Source: Bythopirellula polymerisocia (GTDB lineage: Bacteria > Planctomycetota > Planctomycetia > Pirellulales > Lacipirellulaceae). From it: 64,000 bases of DNA. The DNA lies in assembly GCF_007860015.1 (NCBI RefSeq), contig NZ_SJPS01000012.1:1-64000 (forward strand), in the 5' to 3' direction. The notes below the pieces were generated by a model. That model had not been told where the DNA came from, ran no database searches, and saw nothing but the letters and a program-made list of their open reading frames with translations. Each line of letters begins with the position of its first letter. Position 1 is the stretch's first letter. The position numbers were made by a program, and so were the translations under genes. Below, one piece after another: positions 25,847-48,290 of this stretch.

Positions 25847-26419
25847 ATGGCACGCAGTCCCGAATTGATGAACCCAACCGACACAGGCCTGCTGGTGGTC
25901 GACGTCCAGGATCGCCTTCTTGCCGTGCAGCCTGATGAGAAGCGGATTGTGTGGAATATCCGTCGCTTGTTGGACGGCGCAAGAATCCTCGGAGTCCGCG
26001 CAGCTGCGACAGAGCAATACCCTGAAAAGCTGGGCCCCACTTCGTCGATTCTTGCAGAACGAATCGATGATCCCGCAGTGAGCAAACTCGCATTTAGTTG
26101 TGCAGATTGCAGCACGATCTTCGAACCCTGGCGCGCTGCTGGCATCCACCGTGTGCTTGTGTGTGGCATTGAAACCCACGTCTGCGTGCAGCAAACCGTA
26201 CTCGACTTGCTCTCAACAGGGATGCAAGTCCTAGTTGCTTCCGATGCCGTCGGATCGAGATATGCGACTGATCACGAGATCGCTTTACGACGCATGGAAA
26301 CTTCGGGAGCCATCATCACGACGACTGAGGCGGCACTTTTTGAATGGTGTCGCGTCGCAGGGACAGCAGAGTTCAAATCGATTAGTGCGCTGGCGAAGGA
26401 GGAGTTGGGGGTGAGATGA
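25847..26419 (+). CDS. Isochorismatase-family (cysteine) hydrolase
   Basis: The 190-residue protein has the isochorismatase-like triad: Asp in LLVVDVQDRL, Lys in SKLAFSC and Cys in VLVCGIETHVCVQQT. Members of this stand-alone subgroup (YcaC/nicotinamidase-like) hydrolyse amides or related bonds, but the substrate is not predictable. The protein lies alone between the small Cys-rich gene and the convergent PhoX-like gene. Confidence 0.9.
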   Translation: MARSPELMNPTDTGLLVVDVQDRLLAVQPDEKRIVWNIRRLLDGARILGVRAAATEQYPEKLGPTSSILAERIDDPAVSKLAFSCADCSTIFEPWRAAGIHRVLVCGIETHVCVQQTVLDLLSTGMQVLVASDAVGSRYATDHEIALRRMETSGAIITTTEAALFEWCRVAGTAEFKSISALAKEELGVR

Positions 26420-27970: not shown

Positions 27971-28915
27971 TCAACTAATGCTTCGATTAAGACTCCGATA
28001 GTAATCAATCGACAACTCAAGTCCCTCGTCAAAGGAAATTTGAGACTCAAATTTCAACAGTTTCTGAGCTAGCGTGGTGTCTGCCAGGCTCTCCCTGACA
28101 TCTCCGGGTCGAGGATCAGCAAAGATTGGTTCGATCGCAGTTCCCAGAACCCGATTGATTGCAGCTACTAGATCCAGCAGCGTAAACTGTTTTCCCGTAG
28201 CGACGTTAATTGATTTCCCAACGGCCGCTTGTGACTCGGCAGCCAGCAGATTGCCACGAACAATATCCGCTACATAGGTGAAATCTCTAGATTGCAACCC
28301 GTCACCGTAAATTGTGGGCCGCTTTCCCTGAAGCATCAACGAAACGAAAATTGGAATTACCGCCGAGTATTCGCTCGTAGGATCCTGGCGGGGGCCGAAT
28401 ACATTGAAGTAACGAATCGTAACCGTTTCCAACCCGAATGTTTCGGTAAAGGCCTGGCAATAATACTCGGCTGCCAGTTTGGCCGCCGCATATGGAGACA
28501 ACGGTGCGGGCAAATCCTGCTCAGTCTTGGCAGGCTGTGGTGTGTTACCATAGGCGCTGCTCGAACCGGCATACACTAACCTTCGGACACCGCTCTTGCG
28601 GGCTGCGTCGAGAAGGGTGACCGTGCCCGTCACGCAGGCCGCATTGGTATCCAGCGGTGCTGTGACACTTCGCGGCACGGATGCCAATGCCGCCTGATGG
28701 AATATTAAATCCATTCCCTCGACCGCTGCCGCAGTTGCACGCGGGTCGGCAACATCTCCTTCGATAAGTTCGACGGCGTCACCAAGATGCGTCAGATTCT
28801 CGCGTTTTCCTGCGCAAAGATTATCGAGCACACGCACCTTGTCACCTCGCTCAACAAGAGCCGAGGTGATGTGCGAACCTATAAATCCTGCACCGCCAGT
28901 GACTAGAACTTTCAA
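27971..28915 (-). CDS. NAD-dependent sugar epimerase (GalE/WbpP-like)
   Basis: This is an extended SDR with MKVLVTGGAGFIGSHITSALVERGDKVRVLDN at the N-terminus. The catalytic S-x-Y-x3-K is spread over YAGSSSAYG and SPYAAAKLAAE. The C-terminal substrate part has RDFTYVADIVRGN and a closing LDLVAAINRVLG. Length 314. It most likely epimerises UDP-hexoses or UDP-HexNAc (WbpP-like) for the neighbouring glycan cluster. Confidence 0.88.
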   Translation of the reverse strand: MKVLVTGGAGFIGSHITSALVERGDKVRVLDNLCAGKRENLTHLGDAVELIEGDVADPRATAAAVEGMDLIFHQAALASVPRSVTAPLDTNAACVTGTVTLLDAARKSGVRRLVYAGSSSAYGNTPQPAKTEQDLPAPLSPYAAAKLAAEYYCQAFTETFGLETVTIRYFNVFGPRQDPTSEYSAVIPIFVSLMLQGKRPTIYGDGLQSRDFTYVADIVRGNLLAAESQAAVGKSINVATGKQFTLLDLVAAINRVLGTAIEPIFADPRPGDVRESLADTTLAQKLLKFESQISFDEGLELSIDYYRSLNRSIS

Positions 28916-29023
28916 AGACTTTACTCCCTTGTGAGCCGGATACTCTGCTTGCTAGGTCGCAAAAATAGAGGATTTCACTTGCCAAGGCAATCGCATGATG
29001 GCAGAGTCGTTGGTGATCGAATT

Positions 29024-29923
29024 TCACGACCGCGATTTGTTTGGTTTTGCCTGTTGTTTCTGGGCGTACATATTGCGGTCCGCGGTTTCCAGCATATCAT
29101 CCATAGGCACGGTGAGGTCATTCGCTAGCGCAATGCCAATCGAAACGGACACTGAGAATTCGCGCCCTTCAACAAGGAGAGGTTCCTCTGCAGTGGCTCT
29201 CAGGCGGTCCACCACAGGAATTGCCTCTTCGATAGATTGCACTCCGGCAAGCAGGACGACAAATTCATCTCCACCATATCGTACAACCAGATCGTCGTCA
29301 CGAAGTGACTCTTGCCAGCGCTCCGCCAAGATTGCCAGAATCCGATCCCCATTTGCATGACCATGCTTGTCATTGATTTGTTTGAAATCGTTCAAATCGA
29401 GAAACAATAACGCGTGAGGACATGGTTCACCGGGATTTCTGTAACCCCACTGCTGACGCCAATCTTCCATAACCCTGCGGTCAGGTAAGCCTGTTACCAC
29501 ATCGGAGTAACTGGCTAAATGATTGGTTTGCGTGTTCGGCTGGATCAACAACAGATGCCAGAGATTCTGGTTACTCTCAAGGGAACTAAGATAGACCGTT
29601 GCTTGGGTGACGGGTTGTCCATTCCTATGCAGATTGATTTGATACGAATTGGAGCTCGTAGACTTTCTTGGGCTGGTTCCATTCAATTCCTGCATTGCGC
29701 TCTTGAGGTCTGGTATTAACGAGAAAAGCTGGTCATTCGAAATCGGATCGATCGGAGAGCCAATCCACTGCCTAATCAGGTCATTTGTCGCTAGTACGCG
29801 ATCCTCAGCGAAGTCGATTATGCAGGCCCCAGTGCAAATTCCCCGAATGGGCAGTGGAAACTGTGGGATGCTCATCTTTAAGTCACTCGTGAAATGTATG
29901 GTTTTAGGGAGCTGGTTTTCCAT
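29024..29923 (-). CDS. Diguanylate cyclase with PAS-like sensor domain
   Basis: The 299-residue protein makes c-di-GMP from two GTP. The C-terminal GGDEF domain carries DVVTGLPDRR, LDLNDFKQINDKHGH, the intact signature GGDEF (residues 217-221), and the inhibitory I-site RDDD at 208-211, five residues before it as in feedback-controlled cyclases. Residues ~25-130 look like a PAS-type sensor (GACIIDFAEDRVLATNDLIRQWIG). No membrane segment is evident. A second possible start is Met17 (29875). It is divergent from the sugar transferase that has a GGDEF-like domain. Confidence 0.92.
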   Translation of the reverse strand: MENQLPKTIHFTSDLKMSIPQFPLPIRGICTGACIIDFAEDRVLATNDLIRQWIGSPIDPISNDQLFSLIPDLKSAMQELNGTSPRKSTSSNSYQINLHRNGQPVTQATVYLSSLESNQNLWHLLLIQPNTQTNHLASYSDVVTGLPDRRVMEDWRQQWGYRNPGEPCPHALLFLDLNDFKQINDKHGHANGDRILAILAERWQESLRDDDLVVRYGGDEFVVLLAGVQSIEEAIPVVDRLRATAEEPLLVEGREFSVSVSIGIALANDLTVPMDDMLETADRNMYAQKQQAKPNKSRS

Positions 29924-29945
29924 AAGCCTTGTTCTATCAAGGCTT
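29924..29945 (-). promoter_or_regulatory. Hairpin abutting the diguanylate cyclase start codon
   Basis: AAGCCTTG (29924-29931) and CAAGGCTT (29938-29945) form a perfect 8-bp stem with a 6-base loop, directly next to the ATG at 29923-29921. On the mRNA the 3' arm contains the only ribosome-binding-like bases (AAGG), so folding would hide them. The loop has no GGA, so it is not a CsrA site by the usual rule. If translation starts at Met17 instead, the hairpin lies 48 bases upstream. Confidence 0.55.
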
Positions 29946-30372
29946 TAAGTATTCTTGGAATTGCAGTAGCTTTTTGTCTTCCGGACCACTGTCGGGCCTT
30001 AATGGGGTTGAGTAGGGCAATTTCCCAAAAAAGCAATCGAAAATGGCTCGATTTCATAATAAACATTTGAGACTGTTTCCGGTGCGATCTAAAAAAAGGG
30101 GGGATCCTATTCGATTCCTCCGCAAGTTGCAATTATAATCGCTACGAAGAACCAGATCATCAGGACCGTTGATATTGCGTAATTGTCGCCTCAGCAGAGG
30201 CGCGTGCTCGACAGCAGGGGAGTTTCTAGCAGGTCGAGTTGAGTGGACGATTTATTATTTTCCACCTCACGTATGGTTTTCTGAATCCGCTTGGAGGCGA
30301 TTGAGCTGCGCTTGCTGATTGAATTGAAGGACGTACCTAGATTGAACTACATCATTGAAAAGTCAGGCAACC
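29946..30372. other. Divergent regulatory region of cyclase and sugar transferase
   Basis: The ~430 bases beyond the cyclase hairpin separate the divergently read cyclase and sugar-transferase genes, and must carry promoters for both. A TATAAT at 30134-30139 in the + direction is the best -10 match, but its -35 region (30111-30116) is poor. Otherwise I see no repeats or RNA folds. Confidence 0.4.
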
Positions 30373-31464
30373 ATGAAATCAGGACTACTGAACGTACGCA
30401 AACTCCACGCTCACATTTTTCGCAACCCAGAGGCTAAGTCCGCTTCGTTGCTACTTAGCGAACGGGACCTTCGCTTTGCCGCAGAGTGTGAGCGAATGCG
30501 GGTCGACCGTAATGGCTCAGTTCTTTCGATTCTTTTTATTAAGCTCGCCGAGAACCACAATTTGCCCCAAGACATGGCTCTCCTGGAGCGGATTCTGGAG
30601 GGTAGGCTGAGAGTGACAGACACACCTGGAATTCTCGAGGATGGGCGGGTGGTCGTACTACTTCCTGATACATCCTCAGATGGAGCTTGGAAAGTTGCTG
30701 CCGATATCAGTGAAGTTTATCCCCTAGGACCCACAAGACCTGAATGTGAAGTCATCATCTATCCGGATAAAGGGCATCGTCGAGAGAAACTGATTGACGG
30801 TGAAGAAGTGGCACCGAACGGTGAGCGAGATAAGTCGACAGTTTGCCCACCATTGTTTGCCACTCCAATTCCCCGCTGGAAACGCTCCTTAGATATATTA
30901 GGGGGACTTGTAGGACTAATAGCCTCGGCACCACTTATTACTGTCGCTGCGATTGCTATCAGATGCACTTCCCGCGGCAGTATATTCTATGGGCAGGAAC
31001 GCGAGGGTTGGGCAGGCAAGCGATTCAAGATGTATAAGCTTCGCACTATGGTCAACGGTGCCGATGAAATGAAGGAGTACCTCCGTCACCTCAGCCATCA
31101 AGATGGACCTGCCTTCAAGATGAAATCCGATCCACGCACCACTCCGGTGGGGCGTTTACTGCGTTGGACCAGCATCGACGAGCTGCCGCAACTGTGGAAT
31201 GTGCTCAAAGGCGACATGTCACTCGTTGGACCGCGACCACTGCCAACATCCGAGTCTCAGAGCTGTACCGATTGGCAACGACGGAGGCTATCTGTACTGC
31301 CTGGCATGACGTGCACTTGGCAAGTTTTCGCCCGGGGAGATGTCTCCTTCGACGAGTGGATCCGGATGGACCTGCAATACAGCCGGCAAGTTTCGCTGTG
31401 GGGAGATATCAAACTGCTAATGCTAACACTTCCTTCCTTGGTGCTGCGAAAAGGAATGCGTTAG
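30373..31464 (+). CDS. Initiating polyprenyl-phosphate sugar-phosphate transferase with degenerate GGDEF domain
   Basis: The C-terminal half is a bacterial sugar transferase (WbaP/EpsL type) that starts polysaccharide repeat synthesis by loading a sugar phosphate onto undecaprenyl phosphate. One membrane helix (residues ~174-196) is followed by [34 protein letters not shown] and the PGMTCTWQV segment. The N-terminal ~130 residues align with a GGDEF domain whose active-site signature has decayed to EDGRV (89-93). The I-site RVTD (80-83) is kept at exactly the c-di-GMP-binding spacing, and VVLLPDT is retained. I used ATG 30373 rather than the TTG six codons earlier. The domain call is by my own alignment. 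Confidence 0.87.
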
Positions 31465-31509
31465 CGTCCAACTCGTCGGCAATTGCCCGTCGAAACTGCC
31501 ATATTCATT

Positions 31510-32478
31510 TCAAAACTCGGTGCCGAACTTGCGTCGAACATACCCCGCGTAATACCGCAAGCTCGACGAACTGAACGGCGTTGGTATCCAATAAGGCAAA
31601 CTGGACCGTTGCCTACACGTTACAAAGTCTCGGTTCGCTGCGAGAATGTTGAACGGAAAAATCCACGGCTTCTTCGTACCCATGTAGTGGCTGATCTTTC
31701 TCTCCGACCATAACTGGCCGTGCAGTTCACGTCGCGAAACTTCGACCAGCGTAGCGTCTATCGGGAAATTCCAAACGGGATCGACCACAGTCCAATTTCC
31801 AACCAAGAGCAAATTGTACAGGTCCTGATCGGAATAGCGCACCTTGATGCCTTGGTACTTTCCGGCTGCAGTCAATAGGTCCATACACCGTATCCGCTCG
31901 ATGTCCATGACCATCACTCCTGAATTAAGGTAAGGTTGATCGTCCCCTTGGTTGAGGTACTCCCGGATCGGAGAGTTCTGGCACAAAACGGTAGGTACCA
32001 GCCAGTCTTGGACAGCGCCAATTGGTCTTCCCTGCAAGTTTTGTTGGTACAGATCCCGTAAGTCGGAAAGAACGATCGTGTCGGCATCGAGAAACACGGC
32101 CCGCGGAGTCTCGACAAACTCGGGAACCAAGAACTTTAAATAGGCCACATCGCCTATGGTGCCGATCGGCAATGTCTTGCCCTTAAGTCGCCGTAGTTCT
32201 TCAATCGCATTGATCAAACGGACAGAAATTGCTCCGCAAGTTCGCTCCAAGAGACGCCTAACACGATCCTGGTCATGGCCGGAGTAGAGGACGCAAACGC
32301 TTGCAAGCCCCTTCGATTTTTCCAGCGCAGAATACAGCGATATCAACATTGCATAAGCGTTGCGTTGATCGACGGCATACACGAGCGTAGTAGCCGGTGG
32401 CGAGGGTTGATGATTCTCGTCCAAAACCGTTCCCCTGGTCCGCTTGTCAATCGGTTTTAGGTTAAAGATGGTCGCCAC
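31510..32478 (-). CDS. Family 8 glycosyltransferase
   Basis: The 322-residue protein has the GT8 signature parts: TTLVYAVDQRNAYAMLISLYSAL at the start, the metal-binding DAD in FLDADTIVLSDL (the DxD motif), LNSGVMVMDI, YSDQDLYNLLL and a C-terminal HYMGTKKPW with the conserved His. It would add a hexose from a nucleotide sugar to a growing glycan. It is in reverse orientation to its neighbours and tail-to-tail with the sugar transferase. Confidence 0.9.
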   Translation of the reverse strand: MATIFNLKPIDKRTRGTVLDENHQPSPPATTLVYAVDQRNAYAMLISLYSALEKSKGLASVCVLYSGHDQDRVRRLLERTCGAISVRLINAIEELRRLKGKTLPIGTIGDVAYLKFLVPEFVETPRAVFLDADTIVLSDLRDLYQQNLQGRPIGAVQDWLVPTVLCQNSPIREYLNQGDDQPYLNSGVMVMDIERIRCMDLLTAAGKYQGIKVRYSDQDLYNLLLVGNWTVVDPVWNFPIDATLVEVSRRELHGQLWSERKISHYMGTKKPWIFPFNILAANRDFVTCRQRSSLPYWIPTPFSSSSLRYYAGYVRRKFGTEF

Positions 32479-33015
32479 TAAACTGAGACCAACGAAATCA
32501 TCGGGGGTGACCGATGCCCGCGTTCCACCAGATATTAATCCAAGTTCCTCAGACTGCTAACTCTCTGCTGAGAATATAGATCGACAAACGCGTCCTGATC
32601 GTTGGTCAACAACTAACGCCCTTTTTGATGACTGTGCTGCCGGGGTAGCCAACTGCGAACCTCTTGCTTGCAAAACAACGCTCCCTTGGTCGGCCCCCTG
32701 GCAAGGCAGTAGTCAATCAGATTCCGCGGAGAGTAGCATGCGCAGCGAATAGCACTCCGGCAAAATACCCAGCCAAGTCACATTACGGCTTCGCATTCCG
32801 CATATTCGGTACAATCCCTAGAGTAATCCAGCGATTCCAGGGTGTCAAATTATCGAAGGTTTCATTCGTTGAAAAAAAGCTCGGTCCAGTTAAGATGAAG
32901 GATGACGAGGCAATAGCGCCCGACATCGTCCGTCATCCTACCCTCTATTTGTCTCACGTTGCCTCACTCACCCGTTCGTACTCTCCTGTGCTTCTAACAC
33001 TGGGGAACCGCCAAT
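32479..33015. other. Divergent intergenic region before the Wzz-like gene
   Basis: This 537-base gap lies between the divergent GT8 and Wzz-like genes. A TACAAT at 32810-32815 is the best -10 candidate for the Wzz-like gene but lacks a matching -35. An open frame from 32664 runs into the Wzz-like gene in another register and looks non-coding. No RNA gene or repeat is seen. Confidence 0.4.
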
Positions 33016-34569
33016 ATGCCAGCATCATCAGGAACCCTCCGCGAGCATCTGTCTGTATTCTATCGACATCGCCGCAAGATGGCCGTGTTCTTTCTGGGCA
33101 CAATGATACTCGTCACACTCGGCATAATTCTATGCCCGCGGACTTACGAATCGCAGGCCATGCTGCACGTGCTCATCGGGCGCGAGAATGTTTCAATTGA
33201 CCCAACCGCGGCGACGAGTCCCACCATTACGATGATGGAATCCCGAGAAAATGAAATCAATACGGTTAAGGATCTTCTGCAAAGCAGAACGGTTCTCGAC
33301 GAAGTCGTTTCGGAGCTAGGTGCCCAGAACATTTTGAATCCCGAACAATACTCCGACACTGACAAGACGGGCAACACGGGCGGATTCTCACTGATAGGTG
33401 CGATTTACGATCTGATGTTAGCCGTCAATTTGGCGGACCCCATCGGCGAAAACGAAAGGGCGGCTCTTCAACTCGCCAACGACGTCAAAGTACGTTCCGA
33501 ACCCGAATCCAATGTCATTCAAGTAGCCTTTCGCTCTGAGACGCCTGAATTCTCCCAACGTCTTGGTGAGGTATTCCTCGCAGCCTATAGTGAGCAACAC
33601 AGTCGGGCACATCGGACGCAGGGGTCGCAAGGGTTCTTTATTGAACAATCACATGAACGTGCCGCTGCTCTGGCTTCCGCCGAACAGAAATTGCGTGACC
33701 TGAAAAACAAATTCGGAATTGTCACCATCGGGGCACGTCAGCTAACGCTCAGTAAACAACTGGAACAGGTCGAAACTGACTTACTATCGACGGCTTCTGC
33801 GATCGCGGGCTCAAAGGCCAAGATACAAGCCTTGCGTCAGTCCTTAGCGGAAATACCTGAGCGACTGGTCACTGAGGAAACAACCGAATCCAGCCAAGCC
33901 GCCGACACTATGCGAAACACGCTATATGACCTGCAAATTAGGGAGCAAGAGCTTTCTGCAAAACACACCGATCAACATCCTTTGGTGATGGCTATTCGCC
34001 ATCAAGCTGCCGAAGCGAAGAGGTTGCTCAACGAAGAAGAAAAACGTCGAGTTCAGCCAACCAGCAGCCTAAATCCCGCCAACCAGCAACAGAAACTGGC
34101 CTTATTCGCCGAATTGGCATTAATCTCGGGACTTGAAGCCCGCTACACCTCTGTCAAAGAACAACGCGAAGAATTGCTCTCTGACCTTGAGAAACTTAAC
34201 CAACAGGAAATTGAAGTTGCTGAACTCGAACGCGAGGTATCGCTGTTGCGAAACGAATACATGACTTACATGCATAACACGGAACTTGCTCGGATCAATT
34301 TGGCTTTGGAGGCTCAAAGCATTTCGAACGTCAACGTGGTCCAACCCCCCACTTTCGTGGAAAAACCGGTCAGTCCGCGCAAGTCGCTGATTATGGTGCT
34401 TGGATTCCTGATTGCCGTCTCCGGGGCGATTGGTTTAGCTCTGCTTTGTGAGAATCTACAGGCTGACGTTATTCGATCACCTGCGGATATGGAAACTGTG
34501 TTCGGTGCTCCCGTGATGGAGTCAATTCCCTCCGTCCAGTTGCGAAACGCTGGGGTCTCCGCGAAATAG
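33016..34569 (+). CDS. Wzz/GumC-like polysaccharide co-polymerase (chain-length protein)
   Basis: The 517-residue inner-membrane protein has a membrane helix at ~20-40 and a second near ~450-470. Between lies a long periplasmic coiled-coil region (residues ~190-420, heptad-like E/K/L rich) ending in a GNVR-like EYMTYMHNTELARINLALEAQSISNVNVVQPP segment and the proline-rich VEKPVSPRK. It controls polymer length in the Wzx/Wzy pathway. It lacks a fused kinase domain, and the next gene supplies a kinase-like protein. The final ~30 residues are a short cytoplasmic tail. Confidence 0.9.
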   Translation: MPASSGTLREHLSVFYRHRRKMAVFFLGTMILVTLGIILCPRTYESQAMLHVLIGRENVSIDPTAATSPTITMMESRENEINTVKDLLQSRTVLDEVVSELGAQNILNPEQYSDTDKTGNTGGFSLIGAIYDLMLAVNLADPIGENERAALQLANDVKVRSEPESNVIQVAFRSETPEFSQRLGEVFLAAYSEQHSRAHRTQGSQGFFIEQSHERAAALASAEQKLRDLKNKFGIVTIGARQLTLSKQLEQVETDLLSTASAIAGSKAKIQALRQSLAEIPERLVTEETTESSQAADTMRNTLYDLQIREQELSAKHTDQHPLVMAIRHQAAEAKRLLNEEEKRRVQPTSSLNPANQQQKLALFAELALISGLEARYTSVKEQREELLSDLEKLNQQEIEVAELEREVSLLRNEYMTYMHNTELARINLALEAQSISNVNVVQPPTFVEKPVSPRKSLIMVLGFLIAVSGAIGLALLCENLQADVIRSPADMETVFGAPVMESIPSVQLRNAGVSAK

Positions 34570-34593
34570 AATTGCGAGTCACACAAGCTCTTC

Positions 34594-35253
34594 ATGTCGC
34601 AGCCCACTGCCCCACAAACGTCGTTTGACCTGACCCGCGAAATCCAACGCTGGTCGGTACTTGCTCAAGGTTTCGAGCGTCTTGCCACGCGCTTCCTGGG
34701 CTTGACCACGCGCCAAGGTGCTCCGATTCGGAGGGTGGGGATTACCAGCGTGGCACGCCAGACTGGTACCAGTACCATTGCGATTCAGTTGGCGGCTGCC
34801 CTTTGTCGGTTTCCTGAGCAATCTGCGATCCTGGTGGACGCCAACCGCGAGCACTCCTGGTACGACAGGCAGTTTACCGTTAACAACAGCCCAGGATTGC
34901 TCAATGCACTGTCCGGAGACCTGGAGATCGCCGACTGCGTTCAAAACACAACGACTGCAAACCTTTCGGTGGTAACCTTGGGAAAACCGGTGTGGGCCGA
35001 TGTCGACTATGGCAAGCAATCGCTGGCAGATGCATTCCTTGGCCTTAGTGAGATTGCGGATCGGGTTTTCGTGGACCTACCGGTCGTTAGCGACACAAGC
35101 CATTTCCGGGCAATTTCGCAACAATTGGACGGTGTGATTCTGGTGCTGACTCCTGGCTTGGCTCGGTTGGAACTCGCCGCTCGAGTAAGACACCTGTTGA
35201 CGCAAATGGAAGTCGAACTGTTGGCCGTCGTACCTAACCAGTGGAAGTCGTAA
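34594..35253 (+). CDS. BY-kinase-like/MinD-fold protein with degenerate Walker A
   Basis: The 219-residue protein aligns with the cytoplasmic kinase domains of CpsD/CapB-type partners of Wzz proteins. The P-loop position reads TSVARQTGTST (residues 51-61): aligned to the usual TSxxPGEGKST, the invariant Lys is Thr59. Walker A' is ILVDAN (79-84), and a switch-like VFVDLPVVSDTSHF follows. There is no Tyr-rich C-terminal tail. It is therefore probably a non-catalytic or weakly nucleotide-binding partner. It lies 24 bases after the Wzz-like gene and leads into the polymerase gene. Confidence 0.82.
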   Translation: MSQPTAPQTSFDLTREIQRWSVLAQGFERLATRFLGLTTRQGAPIRRVGITSVARQTGTSTIAIQLAAALCRFPEQSAILVDANREHSWYDRQFTVNNSPGLLNALSGDLEIADCVQNTTTANLSVVTLGKPVWADVDYGKQSLADAFLGLSEIADRVFVDLPVVSDTSHFRAISQQLDGVILVLTPGLARLELAARVRHLLTQMEVELLAVVPNQWKS

Positions 35254-35258
35254 TCAGC

Positions 35259-36623
35259 ATGGCCAGCTTCGATCACACTGCAGCAAACGGACGTCCACTG
35301 GCTCCAGACTGGAATCTGGAAGCAACTGCCGACGTTGTGCCAGGGCAAAGGTTTTACCTCGTGTTTCTGCTGTGCTTGGCCCTGTCTTCCATTCCGGTCA
35401 AAAACCTGGCTTACGTCGTCCCGCCAGTATTTCTTTTCCTCGAGCTGATCGTCGGGGAACGATCAGCTTGGCGCGCTGTGCTGTTGATGGCATTATTCGC
35501 GGTTTTGTCAGGAGCCTCGATGATATTCGACGCGTTCCGTGGCCAGGCAATCAACGTGCCGGGATTACTCTTCGCGCTGCTCACTTACCTGCCTATGTTC
35601 CTGTTCCTCGCTTCGCGCCATGACCGCGAAATCGACTCTTCGCTGTTCACTAAGTTCATCGATGTGACGGCTTGGTTTGTAATCGTGCAGTCGCTGGTGG
35701 GCGTGGTACAGTTTGTACTCAGCCGCAACGGCGACGCAGTAACTGGCACGTTTGGGCTACTTGACTTCCACCTAAATACTATTTCGATCACCCAGGTTTA
35801 CTTCACATTCACTTTGTTCGGAATGATTCTGTTCATGATGCTCGACGCCCGGCGACTGCTCCCGCGGGTTGCCATCGTGGCCGGTTTGTTGACTTGTGCC
35901 ATAGCACAGTCGGGACATCAAACCGTGTTTTTTGCTGCCAGTCTGGCGCTTTGCTGCATGATCCAGTTTCGCCGACTCGGTACGGCCTTGGGTGGCATTG
36001 CAATGGTCGGCTGTCTGACGTTCATCGTAGTACAGCTCTACCCCGACACATTGGAACTCACGCAGGAATGGTACAAAAAAGTAGTTCAAGATCCTCGTTC
36101 CGCGAAACGCATGGTGCTTGCCGACAGTGCCGAGTATTTGTCCGATCCCAAGAATGCACTGCTGGGCGTGGGTTTGGGGCAGTATTCCAGTCGGGCAGCA
36201 TTGATCTCCTCAAATACGTACCTTAATCGCGAGTTGCCGGGGCCGCTCTCCGGCCAGTCCGATTATTTTGTCGACTCAATGATTCCCGCCATGCGCCGGT
36301 TCGACGAAGTCGGTGAGGGCAGCGCCATACCCAAGCCCTACTTCTCTGCTCTTTCGGCGGTAATGGAATTGGGACTCCCATTGACGCTCATCTGCCTGGG
36401 AGTCATGGGTGTTCATCTGCGCAGAAATCTGCGCTGGATGCTTTCCTCCAACCCCAAGATAGCCCGCGTCGGATTGGTGAGCTGCACTGGACTGCTGTTC
36501 TTTTTGCTGTGTTGCGTCATCGAGAACTACATCGAATTCCCTCAGGCGATCTTCCTGCCGTTCTTGCTGTATTTGGTCGTGCAAGCGCGTGCGACGCAGC
36601 TTTCCACTCCATCACCGGTCTGA
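35259..36623 (+). CDS. O-antigen polymerase/ligase-like membrane protein (Wzy-like)
   Basis: The 454-residue protein has about ten to twelve hydrophobic segments (for example FYLVFLLCLALSSIPVKNL and VGLVSCTGLLFFLLCCVIEN). A large periplasmic loop at ~270-370 holds GVGLGQYSSRA, typical of the Wzy_C/O-antigen ligase superfamily. It should polymerise repeat units at the periplasmic face. ATG 35259 follows the kinase-like stop by six bases; a GTG overlapping the previous gene is possible. Confidence 0.85.
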   Translation: MASFDHTAANGRPLAPDWNLEATADVVPGQRFYLVFLLCLALSSIPVKNLAYVVPPVFLFLELIVGERSAWRAVLLMALFAVLSGASMIFDAFRGQAINVPGLLFALLTYLPMFLFLASRHDREIDSSLFTKFIDVTAWFVIVQSLVGVVQFVLSRNGDAVTGTFGLLDFHLNTISITQVYFTFTLFGMILFMMLDARRLLPRVAIVAGLLTCAIAQSGHQTVFFAASLALCCMIQFRRLGTALGGIAMVGCLTFIVVQLYPDTLELTQEWYKKVVQDPRSAKRMVLADSAEYLSDPKNALLGVGLGQYSSRAALISSNTYLNRELPGPLSGQSDYFVDSMIPAMRRFDEVGEGSAIPKPYFSALSAVMELGLPLTLICLGVMGVHLRRNLRWMLSSNPKIARVGLVSCTGLLFFLLCCVIENYIEFPQAIFLPFLLYLVVQARATQLSTPSPV

Positions 36624-36661
36624 GTGGCACAGGCCACCCTGCCGTGGGAATCGTTCTTCGC

Positions 36662-37864
36662 ATGAACACTTCGCCAGCCAACTCGCGGGTACCATCCAAG
36701 GTGCTGCTCTGCCACAACTACTACAAGTTGTCAGGCGGGGAAGACCGGGTTTTTGAGGACGAAGCCCGATTGCTTGAGCGCCACGGACATCAGGTGACTC
36801 GCTATACGGTGACAAATGACGCGATCGATTCGATGAGCCGCTGGTCGGCTGCGGTGCGTACGATTTGGAATCGTAAAACCTACTCCGAGCTCCGCAGGTT
36901 GATGCGTAAAGAACGCCCCGCCTTGGTGCACTTCACCAACACATTTCCGCTGATTTCCCCGGCTGCCTACTATGCGGCTCGCAAAGAACGCGTGCCGGTC
37001 GTCCAAACGCTGCAAAACTACCGACTGATCTGCCCTGGTTCTCTGCTGATGCGCGACGGCAATATTTGCGAAGATTGCGTTACAAAGCGCATTAAATGGC
37101 CTGCTGTGCTGCACGGCTGCTATCGTGGCAATCGGTTGGCAACGGCCTGTACTACCACCATGCTAGCCACACATGGCGCACTGGGCACTTGGCGGAACAT
37201 GGTATCGCGCTACGTGGTGGCGACCGAATTCGGACGGCAGAAATTCATCGACGCCGGCTTCGATGCCCAGCAAATCGCCGTGAAACCCAATTTCGTCGAT
37301 CCCGTTCCTCCCTGTGGAAATGGGGAGGGGGGGCATTTTGTGTTTGTCGGTCGTCTCTCTCCCGAGAAAGGCATCGACACCCTGCTCGAAGCGTGGACGC
37401 AATTCAATGGAAAACTCATAATTCTAGGTGACGGTCCATTGGCCGACAAAGTGGCTCGATTTGCTTCGCAGCATGAACGTGTCCAATGGATGCGCCACCA
37501 ACCTGCGAAGATTGTCCAGCAGGTTGTCGCCGATGCCATCGCCCTGCTCGTCCCGTCAACCTGGTACGAGGGTCTGCCGAAAACGATCGTGGAAGCTTTT
37601 TCGGTTGGAACCCCGATCATCGGATCCGACCTGGGAGCCATGTCTGAAGTCATCACTCCCGGCGAAACGGGGTTGCTATTTCCGGTCGGAAAACCGGACA
37701 AACTCCTGGAATCTTTGCATTGGATGAGCGAGTCACCGGAGCATGCTCACGCGATGCGCGCCAATGTTCGCCGCCACTTTGAGCAGTTTTACACTGCCGA
37801 ACGCAATTACGATTTGTTGCGAGATATCTATTGTCAGGCGATCAACGACACTAGCTTCGAGTGA
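36662..37864 (+). CDS. Family 4 glycosyltransferase
   Basis: The 400-residue protein is a GT-B enzyme: VLLCHNYYKLSGGEDRVFEDEARLL at the N-terminus, a Cys-containing middle (LICPGSLLMRDGNICEDCV), and the nucleotide-sugar site FVFVGRLSPEKGIDTLLEAW with VPSTWYEGLPKTIVEAFSVGTPIIGSDLG (the E-x7-E motif region). I chose ATG 36662 because the family N-terminus starts there; the frame opens earlier inside the polymerase gene. Same operon as the Wzz-like gene. Confidence 0.93.
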   Translation: MNTSPANSRVPSKVLLCHNYYKLSGGEDRVFEDEARLLERHGHQVTRYTVTNDAIDSMSRWSAAVRTIWNRKTYSELRRLMRKERPALVHFTNTFPLISPAAYYAARKERVPVVQTLQNYRLICPGSLLMRDGNICEDCVTKRIKWPAVLHGCYRGNRLATACTTTMLATHGALGTWRNMVSRYVVATEFGRQKFIDAGFDAQQIAVKPNFVDPVPPCGNGEGGHFVFVGRLSPEKGIDTLLEAWTQFNGKLIILGDGPLADKVARFASQHERVQWMRHQPAKIVQQVVADAIALLVPSTWYEGLPKTIVEAFSVGTPIIGSDLGAMSEVITPGETGLLFPVGKPDKLLESLHWMSESPEHAHAMRANVRRHFEQFYTAERNYDLLRDIYCQAINDTSFE

Positions 37865-37895
37865 CTTAATCATTCAGCGCTGCCAAGGTTCAATT

Positions 37896-39170
37896 CTATT
37901 CGTAGATGCGAGTTTCAGGGATAGGAACGACGAACTTGCCGCCCCACTGGCGAACGTAAGAAAGCTGCTCCATTATCTCTTTACGCAAGTTCCACGGCAG
38001 AATCAGCACATAGTCGGGTCTCGTCTCGGCGATGCACTCCGGTGTGTGTACCGGGATTCTTGACCCCGGCAGAAACGTGTTCTGTTTTACCGGATTGCGG
38101 TCGACTGTGTAGAGTATCGAGTCGGAGCGAATTCCGCAGTAATTCAACAGTGTGTTGCCTTTGCCCGGCGCGCCGTAACCGACGACTGTCTTGCCGGCCC
38201 GTTTCGCGTGCATCAAGAAATCTAGCAGTTTCCACTTGGTTTCGACCACTCGCTCGGCGAAGGCTGAGTAGGTGGCCAACGTGTTGTAGCCCTTTGCAAT
38301 TTCCATCTCGAGCAACTCTGGGACCGACTTCAGGACCGGTTTACTCGTGTCTTCGTTGTGCCGCGCGTAGATTCTTAGCGACCCGCCGTGGGTCGTGAGT
38401 TGATCGACATCGAAGATCGTCAGTCCGTGGTGCTGAAAGATATTCTGGATGGCCAACAACGAAAAGTAGCAATAATGCTCCTGGTAAATTGTATCGAATT
38501 GATTCCCTTCGATAAGGCACATTAGGTGTGGAAATTCAAAGGTAATTACTCCGTCGTCTTTGAGAAAAATCTTGAGCCCCGCTACGAAGTCGTTCAGGTC
38601 AGGCACGTGGGCTAGCACATTGTTTCCCAGTAGCAAGTCGGGACGGATTCCCTGCTCGAGCAACTTTCGTGCAGTCGCGGATCCGAAGAATTCGGTTACG
38701 GATTCCACGCCCTTCGCGCGAGCTGCCTCGGCTACATTGGCGGCCGGTTCCACGCCGAGGGCAGGAATGCCTTTCTGCACAAAATACTGCAACAAGTAGC
38801 CATCGTTGCTGGCCACTTCAACGACCTTGCTTTGTGGGCCAAGTTGCAGTCGGTCGGTCATCAGCTCCACATACTCCCTGCAATGCTTCAGCCACGAGTC
38901 GGAGTACGAAGAAAAATATGCATAGTCGCTCTTGAAAATGTCCTCACCCATCACATGTGCATGCACTTGTACTAGCCAACAGGCTTGGCAAATCCGCATT
39001 TGCAGCGGGTAGAACACCTCGGGATCACTCGCCTGTTCAGGTGTGATTCGGTTTTGACACAAGGGCGAAAGCCCCAGGTCGACGACCGTATGTTCCAGCG
39101 GCTGGGCGCAGAAGCGGCAACGCTCCGCGGGCATACTGTTCGTCAGTCGTGCGTCGGACGAAGAACTCAT
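37896..39170 (-). CDS. SAM-dependent NDP-hexose C-methyltransferase
   Basis: The 424-residue protein has the three-part layout of the TylCIII/NovU family. It starts with an N-terminal zinc site (CRFC and CQAC, residues ~18-65). A SAM domain with VVEVASNDGYLLQYF follows, containing the NNVLAHVPDLNDF segment. The C-terminal half has THGGSLRIYARH and VVGYGAPGKGNTLLNYCG. It should transfer a methyl group to a carbon of a keto-deoxysugar nucleotide, making a branched sugar. It overlaps the dioxygenase gene by four bases. Confidence 0.92.
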   Translation of the reverse strand: MSSSSDARLTNSMPAERCRFCAQPLEHTVVDLGLSPLCQNRITPEQASDPEVFYPLQMRICQACWLVQVHAHVMGEDIFKSDYAYFSSYSDSWLKHCREYVELMTDRLQLGPQSKVVEVASNDGYLLQYFVQKGIPALGVEPAANVAEAARAKGVESVTEFFGSATARKLLEQGIRPDLLLGNNVLAHVPDLNDFVAGLKIFLKDDGVITFEFPHLMCLIEGNQFDTIYQEHYCYFSLLAIQNIFQHHGLTIFDVDQLTTHGGSLRIYARHNEDTSKPVLKSVPELLEMEIAKGYNTLATYSAFAERVVETKWKLLDFLMHAKRAGKTVVGYGAPGKGNTLLNYCGIRSDSILYTVDRNPVKQNTFLPGSRIPVHTPECIAETRPDYVLILPWNLRKEIMEQLSYVRQWGGKFVVPIPETRIYE

Positions 39171-46949: not shown

Positions 46950-48290
46950 TCATCTGAAGGCCACTTCGGCTAGATTTGTCGTCGATCTGCTTGGGATTTT
47001 AATCCGAATTTCATCCGGCGACCTGCCGTGCTTCTCCAATACCTGGCGATAAATCTCCGCCAATCGCTCTCCCTGTCGGTCCCACAAACAAAGCTCTGCC
47101 TGCTCCAAAGCTGCGTCGCTCATGCGACGAACAAGATCCCTATCCCGCGCGCATTCGGCAACGGCATCCGCAATTGATTTAATGACCGCTTGGGGATTGG
47201 TCACAGGAATCTTGATGCCGCATCGTTCGGTAACAATGTCATGGGCCCCCTGATGATCGAGGCATATCACCGGGAGCCCATTAGCAAACGCCTCTAATAT
47301 GACCGTGCCTGTCGTATCTCGCAAACTGCTAAACACAAACACATCGGCCCATCGGTATTGCTGAAGTGCTTCTTCGTGGGGTATGCGGCCTAACCACTCT
47401 ATGTTTTCTGAAATTCCTAAATCGAGCCCTAACTTTTGAAGATCCTGGTGAAGTTTACCGTCTCCCACCACACGCAACTTAAACGACGAATCACTGGGCA
47501 AGCGTGACAGGGCATGCAGCACCAAATCGAGCGCCTTACTAAAAGTGAGGTTACCTATCCACAGCAGCCGCAAGGGTTCGCTCGGGTCGCGCTGCTCGTG
47601 GTGCTTACCCACAATTTGCTTAATTCCATTTTCGTTTAATAGAATAGCTGGGTAACCAAGCACTTGTTCCACATACCGTTTGGCAGTGGAGTTGGCGGTC
47701 AATCGTACGGCTGCCCGCGCTGCAGCAAGCCGGACCCGCAAACTGGTTCGCAGTTGGATGGAATTGCAAATGGTGCGCAAGTTCTCTTTGATCCGCGACA
47801 ACCCCCATGGCAATGAGAACCGCCAGGGACAATTCTGCACACCTCCGATAGGGCCCCATACAAACGGAATCTCCAGCTTCCAGAGATACCCAGGTTCTCG
47901 GTAACCAATAAAGTTGACATGATGGACCAGATCAAAACCGATATCAGCGTGCAGCTTTTTTGCAAGTAGAAAGGCCTGGTAATGCCACCCTTTAAAAGCA
48001 AAGAAATTTATAAACGGCAACCACCTACTGAACTTGTGAATCGCGCACTGCAATTTGGGTTGAGGAAGGAACACAAAAGTCACGTGCGGAATCGATCCGT
48101 TCTCTTCTAAGTACTGCTCTATCACCCCTTGGCAATCGTCAGCACAACAGATGACCCACACGTCGCAGGTTCTGCCCATCTGGGTGGCCCAATTCCAGCC
48201 AACCCCCTGCTCTGAACCATAGTACGGTTCGCACGCGTAGGCAACTTGCAGCACACGGGGCCGGCGCGGTGAGGGGGAAGAAGATTTCAT
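46950..48290 (-). CDS. Family 4 glycosyltransferase (second copy)
   Basis: The 446-residue GT-B protein has VLQVAYACEPYYGSEQGVGWNWATQMGRTCDVWVI at the N-terminus, and the C-terminal donor site LLWIGNLTFSKALDLVLHALSRL with FVFSSLRDTTGTVILEAFANGLPVICLDHQGAHDIV. It probably adds one sugar of the repeat. It lies upstream of the flippase on the same strand, with 46 bases between the chosen genes' frames. Confidence 0.9.
   Translation of the reverse strand: MKSSSPSPRRPRVLQVAYACEPYYGSEQGVGWNWATQMGRTCDVWVICCADDCQGVIEQYLEENGSIPHVTFVFLPQPKLQCAIHKFSRWLPFINFFAFKGWHYQAFLLAKKLHADIGFDLVHHVNFIGYREPGYLWKLEIPFVWGPIGGVQNCPWRFSLPWGLSRIKENLRTICNSIQLRTSLRVRLAAARAAVRLTANSTAKRYVEQVLGYPAILLNENGIKQIVGKHHEQRDPSEPLRLLWIGNLTFSKALDLVLHALSRLPSDSSFKLRVVGDGKLHQDLQKLGLDLGISENIEWLGRIPHEEALQQYRWADVFVFSSLRDTTGTVILEAFANGLPVICLDHQGAHDIVTERCGIKIPVTNPQAVIKSIADAVAECARDRDLVRRMSDAALEQAELCLWDRQGERLAEIYRQVLEKHGRSPDEIRIKIPSRSTTNLAEVAFR

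Follow-up and report, generated by a model that had tools for sequence, protein, structure and literature searches.

Can the first step of an exopolysaccharide pathway be switched directly by c-di-GMP? Direct control by this molecule is well described for polysaccharide systems of the synthase type, and the post-translational control of Wzx/Wzy-type pathways is described as incompletely understood (PMC12802240). The question is raised by a sugar transferase gene of Bythopirellula polymerisocia, which lies in a 64,000-nucleotide stretch of contig NZ_SJPS01000012.1 (assembly GCF_007860015.1). The whole stretch was analysed and is called the window here. A preliminary description, made from the sequence alone, had proposed that the N-terminal domain of this transferase is a degenerate GGDEF domain that keeps the c-di-GMP inhibitory site (I-site).

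The transferase and its GGDEF-like domain

The gene and its parts are as follows.

30373 to 31464, plus strand: initiating sugar transferase of 363 amino acids (open reading frame translation; PF02397)
30445 to 30783, plus strand: degenerate GGDEF domain, residues 25 to 137 (profile search against the PDB, hhalign, AlphaFold2 and Foldseek)
30637 to 30651, plus strand: E89-D-G-R-V93 at the position of the GGDEF motif, catalytic signature lost (column entropies 2.0 to 3.3 bits)
30880 to 31440, plus strand: Bac_transf (PF02397) catalytic domain, residues 170 to 356, with the D269-E270 dyad (E 9.3e-60)

The gene product is best read as a monotopic phosphoglycosyl transferase with which synthesis of an exopolysaccharide begins. 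Translation may begin at ATG 30373 or at an alternative TTG at 30355. The protein carries the Asp-Glu dyad of the PF02397 monotopic phosphoglycosyl transferases. The dyad pattern was matched in 53 of 54 relatives, the remaining one being a gene split over two frames, and D269 and E270 were invariant across 24 aligned rows. At positions 9364-11342 of L293 (the same gene as L132), the GGDEF-like part and the catalytic part lie in separate open frames, which could reflect a genuine break, a programmed shift or an assembly error. A full-length AlphaFold2 model (pTM 0.59) was not used for the arrangement of the two domains because its linker had a pLDDT below 50.

As a single sequence, the N-terminal domain matched no Pfam or NCBIfam family and, therefore, its assignment to the GGDEF domains rests on profiles. 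A profile made from an alignment of 32 N-terminal domains was run by hmmsearch against the PDB sequences and returned 38 sequences at an E-value limit of 10, most of them diguanylate cyclases. The scores were E 8.4e-13 for 3ign, 2.2e-9 for 5euh and about 5e-7 to 1e-6 for WspR chains, with weaker matches to PleD (0.01) and PelD (about 0.55). Also in this list were the ammonium-transporter chains 8qj3 and 8qpf (about 2.5e-6), 1rku and the designed repeat proteins 7udk (3.5e-6, although no individual stretch passed). A 12-row profile, restricted to the closest relatives, was weaker (E 3.5e-5 for 3ign). When the 32-domain alignment was compared by hhalign with aligned GGDEF domains of the planctomycete class (85 sequences), a probability of 97.7% and an E value of 2.1e-12 were obtained, and the register placed RxxD over RxxD and EDGRV over GGEEF with zero shift. 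With E values up to 1 admitted, PF00990 was matched by 6 of the 32 members (best E 0.0021) and PF17853 by 7 of the 32 (best E 3.4e-5). Membership of PF17853 (GGDEF_2) was considered and set aside: this profile had 19 matches in 39 class genomes, of which 14 coincided with PF00990 places and one was the GGDEF-transferase fusion family's own transferase.

The predicted structure agrees with the profiles. An AlphaFold2 model of the N-terminal domain, made with three input sequences, reached a pLDDT of 78 and a pTM of 0.74 in the best of five models, with two models at about 61. All 50 of the Foldseek matches listed for this model were GGDEF structures (TM 0.59-0.73 on the query), and the c-di-GMP complexes 3ign, 5euh and PleD were among them. 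Homology to the GGDEF superfamily is thus detectable by profile as well as by fold. The alignment with GGDEF domains given in the preliminary description was borne out by both profile methods, and the different fold that it had named as evidence to the contrary was not what the model gave.

An active diguanylate cyclase has a GG(D/E)EF motif, a metal-binding Asp and a substrate loop. In the window protein, the motif position reads E89-D-G-R-V93, as described before, the metal-binding Asp position is K57, and the substrate loop is shorter by about nine to ten residues than in GGDEF domains. The motif positions vary in relatives, with entropies of 2.8-3.3 bits at K57 and E89-R92 across 54 sequences. 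From its sequence, the N-terminal domain is well supported as a diguanylate cyclase domain that has lost catalysis.

Conservation of the I-site

Two elements of the I-site are found in the N-terminal domain.

30610 to 30621, plus strand: R80-V-T-D83, the RxxD motif of the primary I-site (54 of 54 relatives; 26 of 27 in a set selected by catalytic domain)
30490 to 30510, plus strand: E40-x-x-R43-x-x-R46, helix of the secondary I-site (E40 in 54 of 54 relatives, R43 in 50 of 54, R46 in 53 of 54)

Five residues (TPGIL) lie between D83 and E89, so the translation agrees with the spacing claimed earlier. R80-VTD83 is the sole RxxD in residues 1-163, and the chance of an R and a D at that fixed place, estimated from the region's own composition, is about 0.006.

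With the N-terminal domain as query, 38 of 297 class genomes matched at E 0.01; a Mariniblastus bin (L040) was among the relatives aligning over the domain. The 32-domain profile matched 329 of 392 genomes of the phylum at 1e-5. The fusion family stands apart at about 65 bits and above, and the matches of up to 59 bits probably belong to other GGDEF proteins; two of these low scorers were fetched, one with the GGDEF motif (L153) and one without (L152). Removal of the window copies and duplicate loci left 54 distinct N-terminal domains with a median pairwise identity of 27%. R80, D83, G86 and E40 were invariant among them. The lowest entropies among 120 domain positions were found at D83, E40, G86, R80, L97 and R46, and R43 came seventh.

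Selection by the N-terminal domain was considered as an artefactual source of this conservation and was rejected on a limited control set picked by the C-terminal domain. This set held 29 proteins besides the window's, 27 of them in the high-scoring group; the other two (L182 and L183) had no such N-terminal domain. The RxxD was kept in 26 of the 27: a pattern detected it in 24, and in two more (L176 and L181), which lack the G that follows, it was recognized by eye. The overlap with the 54 amounted to 23 of the 27, three more high-scoring places were left out, and the RxxD was present in three of the four new members. The conservation in homologues that the preliminary description had wanted checked was thus found in both sets. 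L178, a class member with the fusion, has lost the RxxD altogether and could serve as a natural experiment on what follows when the ligand site is lost.

In WspR, the residues that bind c-di-GMP are R242 and, from the neighbouring domain, R198 (PMC2270323). Alignment to WspR chain 9t28 placed, by residue counting, R80 over the arginine of RSSD (R242) and R46 over R198, which lies 44 residues before the RSSD arginine in that chain. The window protein has, therefore, both the RxxD five residues before the GGDEF position and the second arginine, two features looked for in I-site receptors of c-di-GMP such as PelD, PopA and BcsE.

The same positions were compared in 83 GGDEF-motif domains from 39 class genomes, a non-random sample of the higher-ranking entries in the PF00990 list, with one of 84 dropped. 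The RxxD was present in 64 of the 83. The residues of the secondary site were more frequent in these 64 than in the 19 domains lacking RxxD, with p values that ignore relatedness: R at the R43 position in 39/64 vs 3/19 (p 6e-4), R at the R46 position in 47/64 vs 5/19 (p 3e-4), E at the E40 position in 34/64 vs 3/19 (p 0.004) and the full E/R/R triad in 29/64 vs 3/19 (p 0.03). A smaller first sample of 29 GGDEF-motif domains had given a cleaner separation of the triad than the larger one (15/22 vs 0/7). Published values are RxxD in 57% of domains and the second arginine in 64% of those (PMC4215984). Judged by alignment, the two-sided part of the I-site is more uniform in the degenerate domain than among the cyclases sampled.

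A third basic residue belongs to some I-sites, and two positions of the window protein bear on it.

30703 to 30705, plus strand: D111, at the place of SiaD R201, 31 residues past the RxxD arginine (54-row alignment)
30604 to 30606, plus strand: R78, two residues before the RxxD arginine, family-specific (47 of 54 relatives; R in 1 of 67 RxxD-bearing GGDEF-motif domains)

The I-site of SiaD also uses R201, 31 residues past R170 of its RxxD, and the R201A change abolishes inhibition by c-di-GMP (PMC8457831). PelD additionally requires R402, 35 residues past its RxxD arginine (PMC2170427). Arginine at 31 residues past the RxxD arginine was found in 55 of the 67 RxxD-bearing GGDEF-motif domains. 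The residue of PleD that matches SiaD R201 is presumably R390. The window protein has D111 at this place, aligned with a lysine in WspR chain 9t28, and does not have the third basic residue. Among the 54 relatives, residue 111 is D in 20 and E in 8 (acidic in 28), and K in 6 and R in 5 (basic in 11). That position 111 is acidic in 28 of 54 while SiaD R201A loses inhibition counts against a receptor. Consequently, the earlier claim that the I-site is kept holds for the RxxD and for the second arginine, R46, and does not hold for the third basic residue.

R78 could possibly substitute for the missing residue. R or K was found at position 111 in all seven relatives without R78 vs 4 of the 47 with it (Fisher p 1.9e-6). 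A quickly built tree of the catalytic domains (54 rows with the window's, without the split gene) has four changes of R78 and seven of residue 111. Among three independent pairs on supported branches, the two moved in opposite directions in a mean of 2.8 and in the same direction in none. The association is non-significant when phylogeny is taken into account (three to four independent pairs, median p 0.25). The pattern is suggestive of one basic residue being exchanged for another, and a plain R78-D111 salt bridge is a possible explanation of many of the rows as well. The exchange offers a sharp, testable point on how far an I-site can be rebuilt.

Salt bridges could also account for the conserved site as a whole, if the N-terminal domain were a structural or dimerization relic in which R80, D83, E40, R43 and R46 form an internal network that binds no ligand. 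E40, R43, R46 and D45 are conserved along with R80 and D83, a pattern expected of an ionic network, and the residue at 111, where it is acidic (28 of 54), could be a partner for R78. We consider this reading unlikely, since the GGDEF-motif domains lacking RxxD mostly have other residues there (R43 is kept in 3, R46 in 5 and E40 in 3 of the 19), so that the fold does not need R43, R46 or E40. A relic would also leave the adjacent cyclase unexplained.

The adjacent cyclase and the surrounding genes

The genes on either side of the transferase that bear on its function are the following.

29024 to 29923, minus strand: diguanylate cyclase with intact GGDEF and RxxD (RDDD), divergent neighbour of the transferase (PF00990, E 1.5e-38)
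33016 to 34569, plus strand: polysaccharide chain-length determinant, GNVR/Wzz-like (family scan)
34594 to 35253, plus strand: tyrosine-autokinase-like partner of the chain-length protein (match below curated cut-offs)
35241 to 36623, plus strand: hydrophobic protein, polymerase-like as judged from its sequence and position, with no family match

Twelve other genomes of the same family or genus were searched, and the transferase N-terminal domain was matched in 10 of them (all except G236 and G221). All 10, and thus 11 of 11 genomes with the window's, have a divergent GGDEF-motif gene no more than about 0.8 kb from the transferase. The RxxD was seen by eye in the alignment of all 11 neighbouring cyclases, the window's included. 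The neighbours of 7 of the 10 relatives align with the window cyclase over at least half its length at 33-43% identity. The other three are linked to it by the GGDEF profile only, and the neighbours may, therefore, not all share a common descent. Five window genes on the cyclase side were also looked for: three that we take to be hslU, hslV and an isochorismatase-like open reading frame at 25847, together with a PhoX gene and an epimerase-like open reading frame at 27971. None of the five was found in the ten relatives' stretches of about 8-9 kb, and therefore the pair was kept while the rest changed.

This pairing is limited to one bacterial family, and a neighbouring cyclase as a rule for the phylum was rejected. 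Elsewhere in the class, a GGDEF gene was found in 2 of 8 stretches (11-20 kb), at about 3 and 8 kb from the transferase, and in the other classes of the phylum none was found near the transferase in 20 stretches.

Glycosyltransferases also lie on the transferase side of the locus, and the genes there would make up a usual Wzx/Wzy-type cluster. In the window, a family 8 glycosyltransferase (31510-32478) follows the transferase. A homologue of the window's glycosyltransferase at 46950-48290 adjoins the transferase in all 10 relatives. An Rfam scan of 29000-38000 gave zero matches up to E 0.1, and no sigma-70-like promoter was found in the divergent gap.

The window genome (6.1 Mb) holds nine GGDEF matches, eight of them over the cut-off, and five HD_5 (HD-GYP-type) matches. 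Its single PilZ match spans half of that profile, and no EAL domain scored above the cut-off. PilZ-type receptors of c-di-GMP thus look scarce in this genome.

These surroundings bear on the identity of the ligand. The altered I-site might bind another nucleotide or cyclic dinucleotide, such as cGAMP, c-di-AMP or a nucleotide sugar, and its third residue is indeed unlike that of most RxxD-bearing domains, so that specificity may have shifted. The neighbouring enzyme has a plain GGDEF signature, however, and the other GGDEF and HD_5 matches in the genome mean that turnover of c-di-GMP is to be expected, which makes a different ligand distinctly improbable. We give very little weight to a third explanation, that a partner protein, for instance the neighbouring cyclase, docks on the N-terminal domain through a GGDEF-GGDEF contact and exerts control without free c-di-GMP: the conserved gene pair and the known protein control of an initiating transferase in EpsW-EpsZ (PMC12802240) would fit it, but the RxxD is kept in members from 20 genomes of other classes with no GGDEF gene found nearby, which points to a more general reason for keeping the site.

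A candidate receptor fused to the initiating enzyme

We regard it as likely, on the sequence evidence above, that the N-terminal domain of the transferase is a candidate c-di-GMP receptor fused to the initiating enzyme, with a local cyclase next door. The proposed mechanism is as follows. The degenerate GGDEF domain would keep its I-site as a receptor, and an intercalated dimer of c-di-GMP would bind R80 and D83, while R78 would stand in for the third basic residue, which is missing. The ligand would then cross-link to R46 and R43 of a second protomer, which would change the oligomeric state or the orientation of the catalytic domain. The altered state would thereby govern how the first sugar phosphate is passed on to the lipid carrier. 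In the bacterial family of the window, the divergent neighbouring cyclase would supply the signal locally, and elsewhere the cell's pool would do so. By analogy with PelD and BcsE, activation of the transferase seems somewhat more likely than inhibition.

Control through oligomers is plausible because dimer formation is the proposed route of control in EpsZ-EpsW (PMC12802240). The same source describes small monotopic transferases as functional monomers, which sits poorly with dimer control. We lean slightly towards the wider interpretation that a transferase family found across the phylum is gated directly by c-di-GMP, its third basic I-site residue having moved from position 111 to 78 and a dedicated cyclase gene having been paired with it in one family.

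Several known systems share parts of this arrangement. PelD, of the Pel polysaccharide system of Pseudomonas aeruginosa, likewise binds c-di-GMP by way of an RxxD-containing degenerate GGDEF domain and so controls the synthesis of its polysaccharide (PMC2170427, PMC8461298), but it is a separate membrane protein with a GAF domain and needs R402, whereas the window's domain is fused to the initiating enzyme. BcsE, in cellulose secretion, also binds c-di-GMP at the I-site of a degenerate GGDEF-like domain and is tied to polysaccharide export (PMC8461298); unlike the window protein, it is an accessory protein of the cellulose synthase complex and has no transferase fusion. The I-site of WspR and PleD is similar in combining RxxD with an arginine from a neighbouring domain (PMC2270323), but those proteins are active cyclases under feedback inhibition. 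EpsZ-EpsW of Myxococcus xanthus provides a precedent in that an initiating monotopic phosphoglycosyl transferase is controlled there directly, at the post-translational level (PMC12802240), although the regulator there is a separate phosphorylated receiver protein, the transferase is of the large type, and c-di-GMP is not involved. In BcsA-PilZ, Alg44 and PgaCD, c-di-GMP acts directly on the machinery of polysaccharide synthesis (PMC12564702), but it does so at PilZ or interface sites and on polymerizing synthases rather than on the lipid-linked initiating step.

Passages from two reviews (PMC8461298, PMC12564702) name PelD, BcsE, BcsA, Alg44 and PgaCD and do not name a GGDEF-transferase fusion. 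No such fusion appeared in titles or abstracts among the literature matches listed, though a network analysis of monotopic transferases may have catalogued it, and no paper on c-di-GMP control of polysaccharides in Planctomycetes was among the matches listed. The cyclase pairing in 11 of 11 genomes of the bacterial family and the presence of D111 together with R78 are new here. These data suggest that c-di-GMP switches polysaccharide initiation directly in planctomycetes. If this is true, one protein joins a signal receptor to the step that commits the lipid carrier and the sugar nucleotide, and the first committed step of a Wzx/Wzy-type pathway is a direct target of c-di-GMP.

The same GGDEF-like/transferase fusion, at about 39% identity, was also seen in a Myxococcales genome bin (L035). 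It may mean that the fusion is not limited to Planctomycetota, or the contig may be misbinned.
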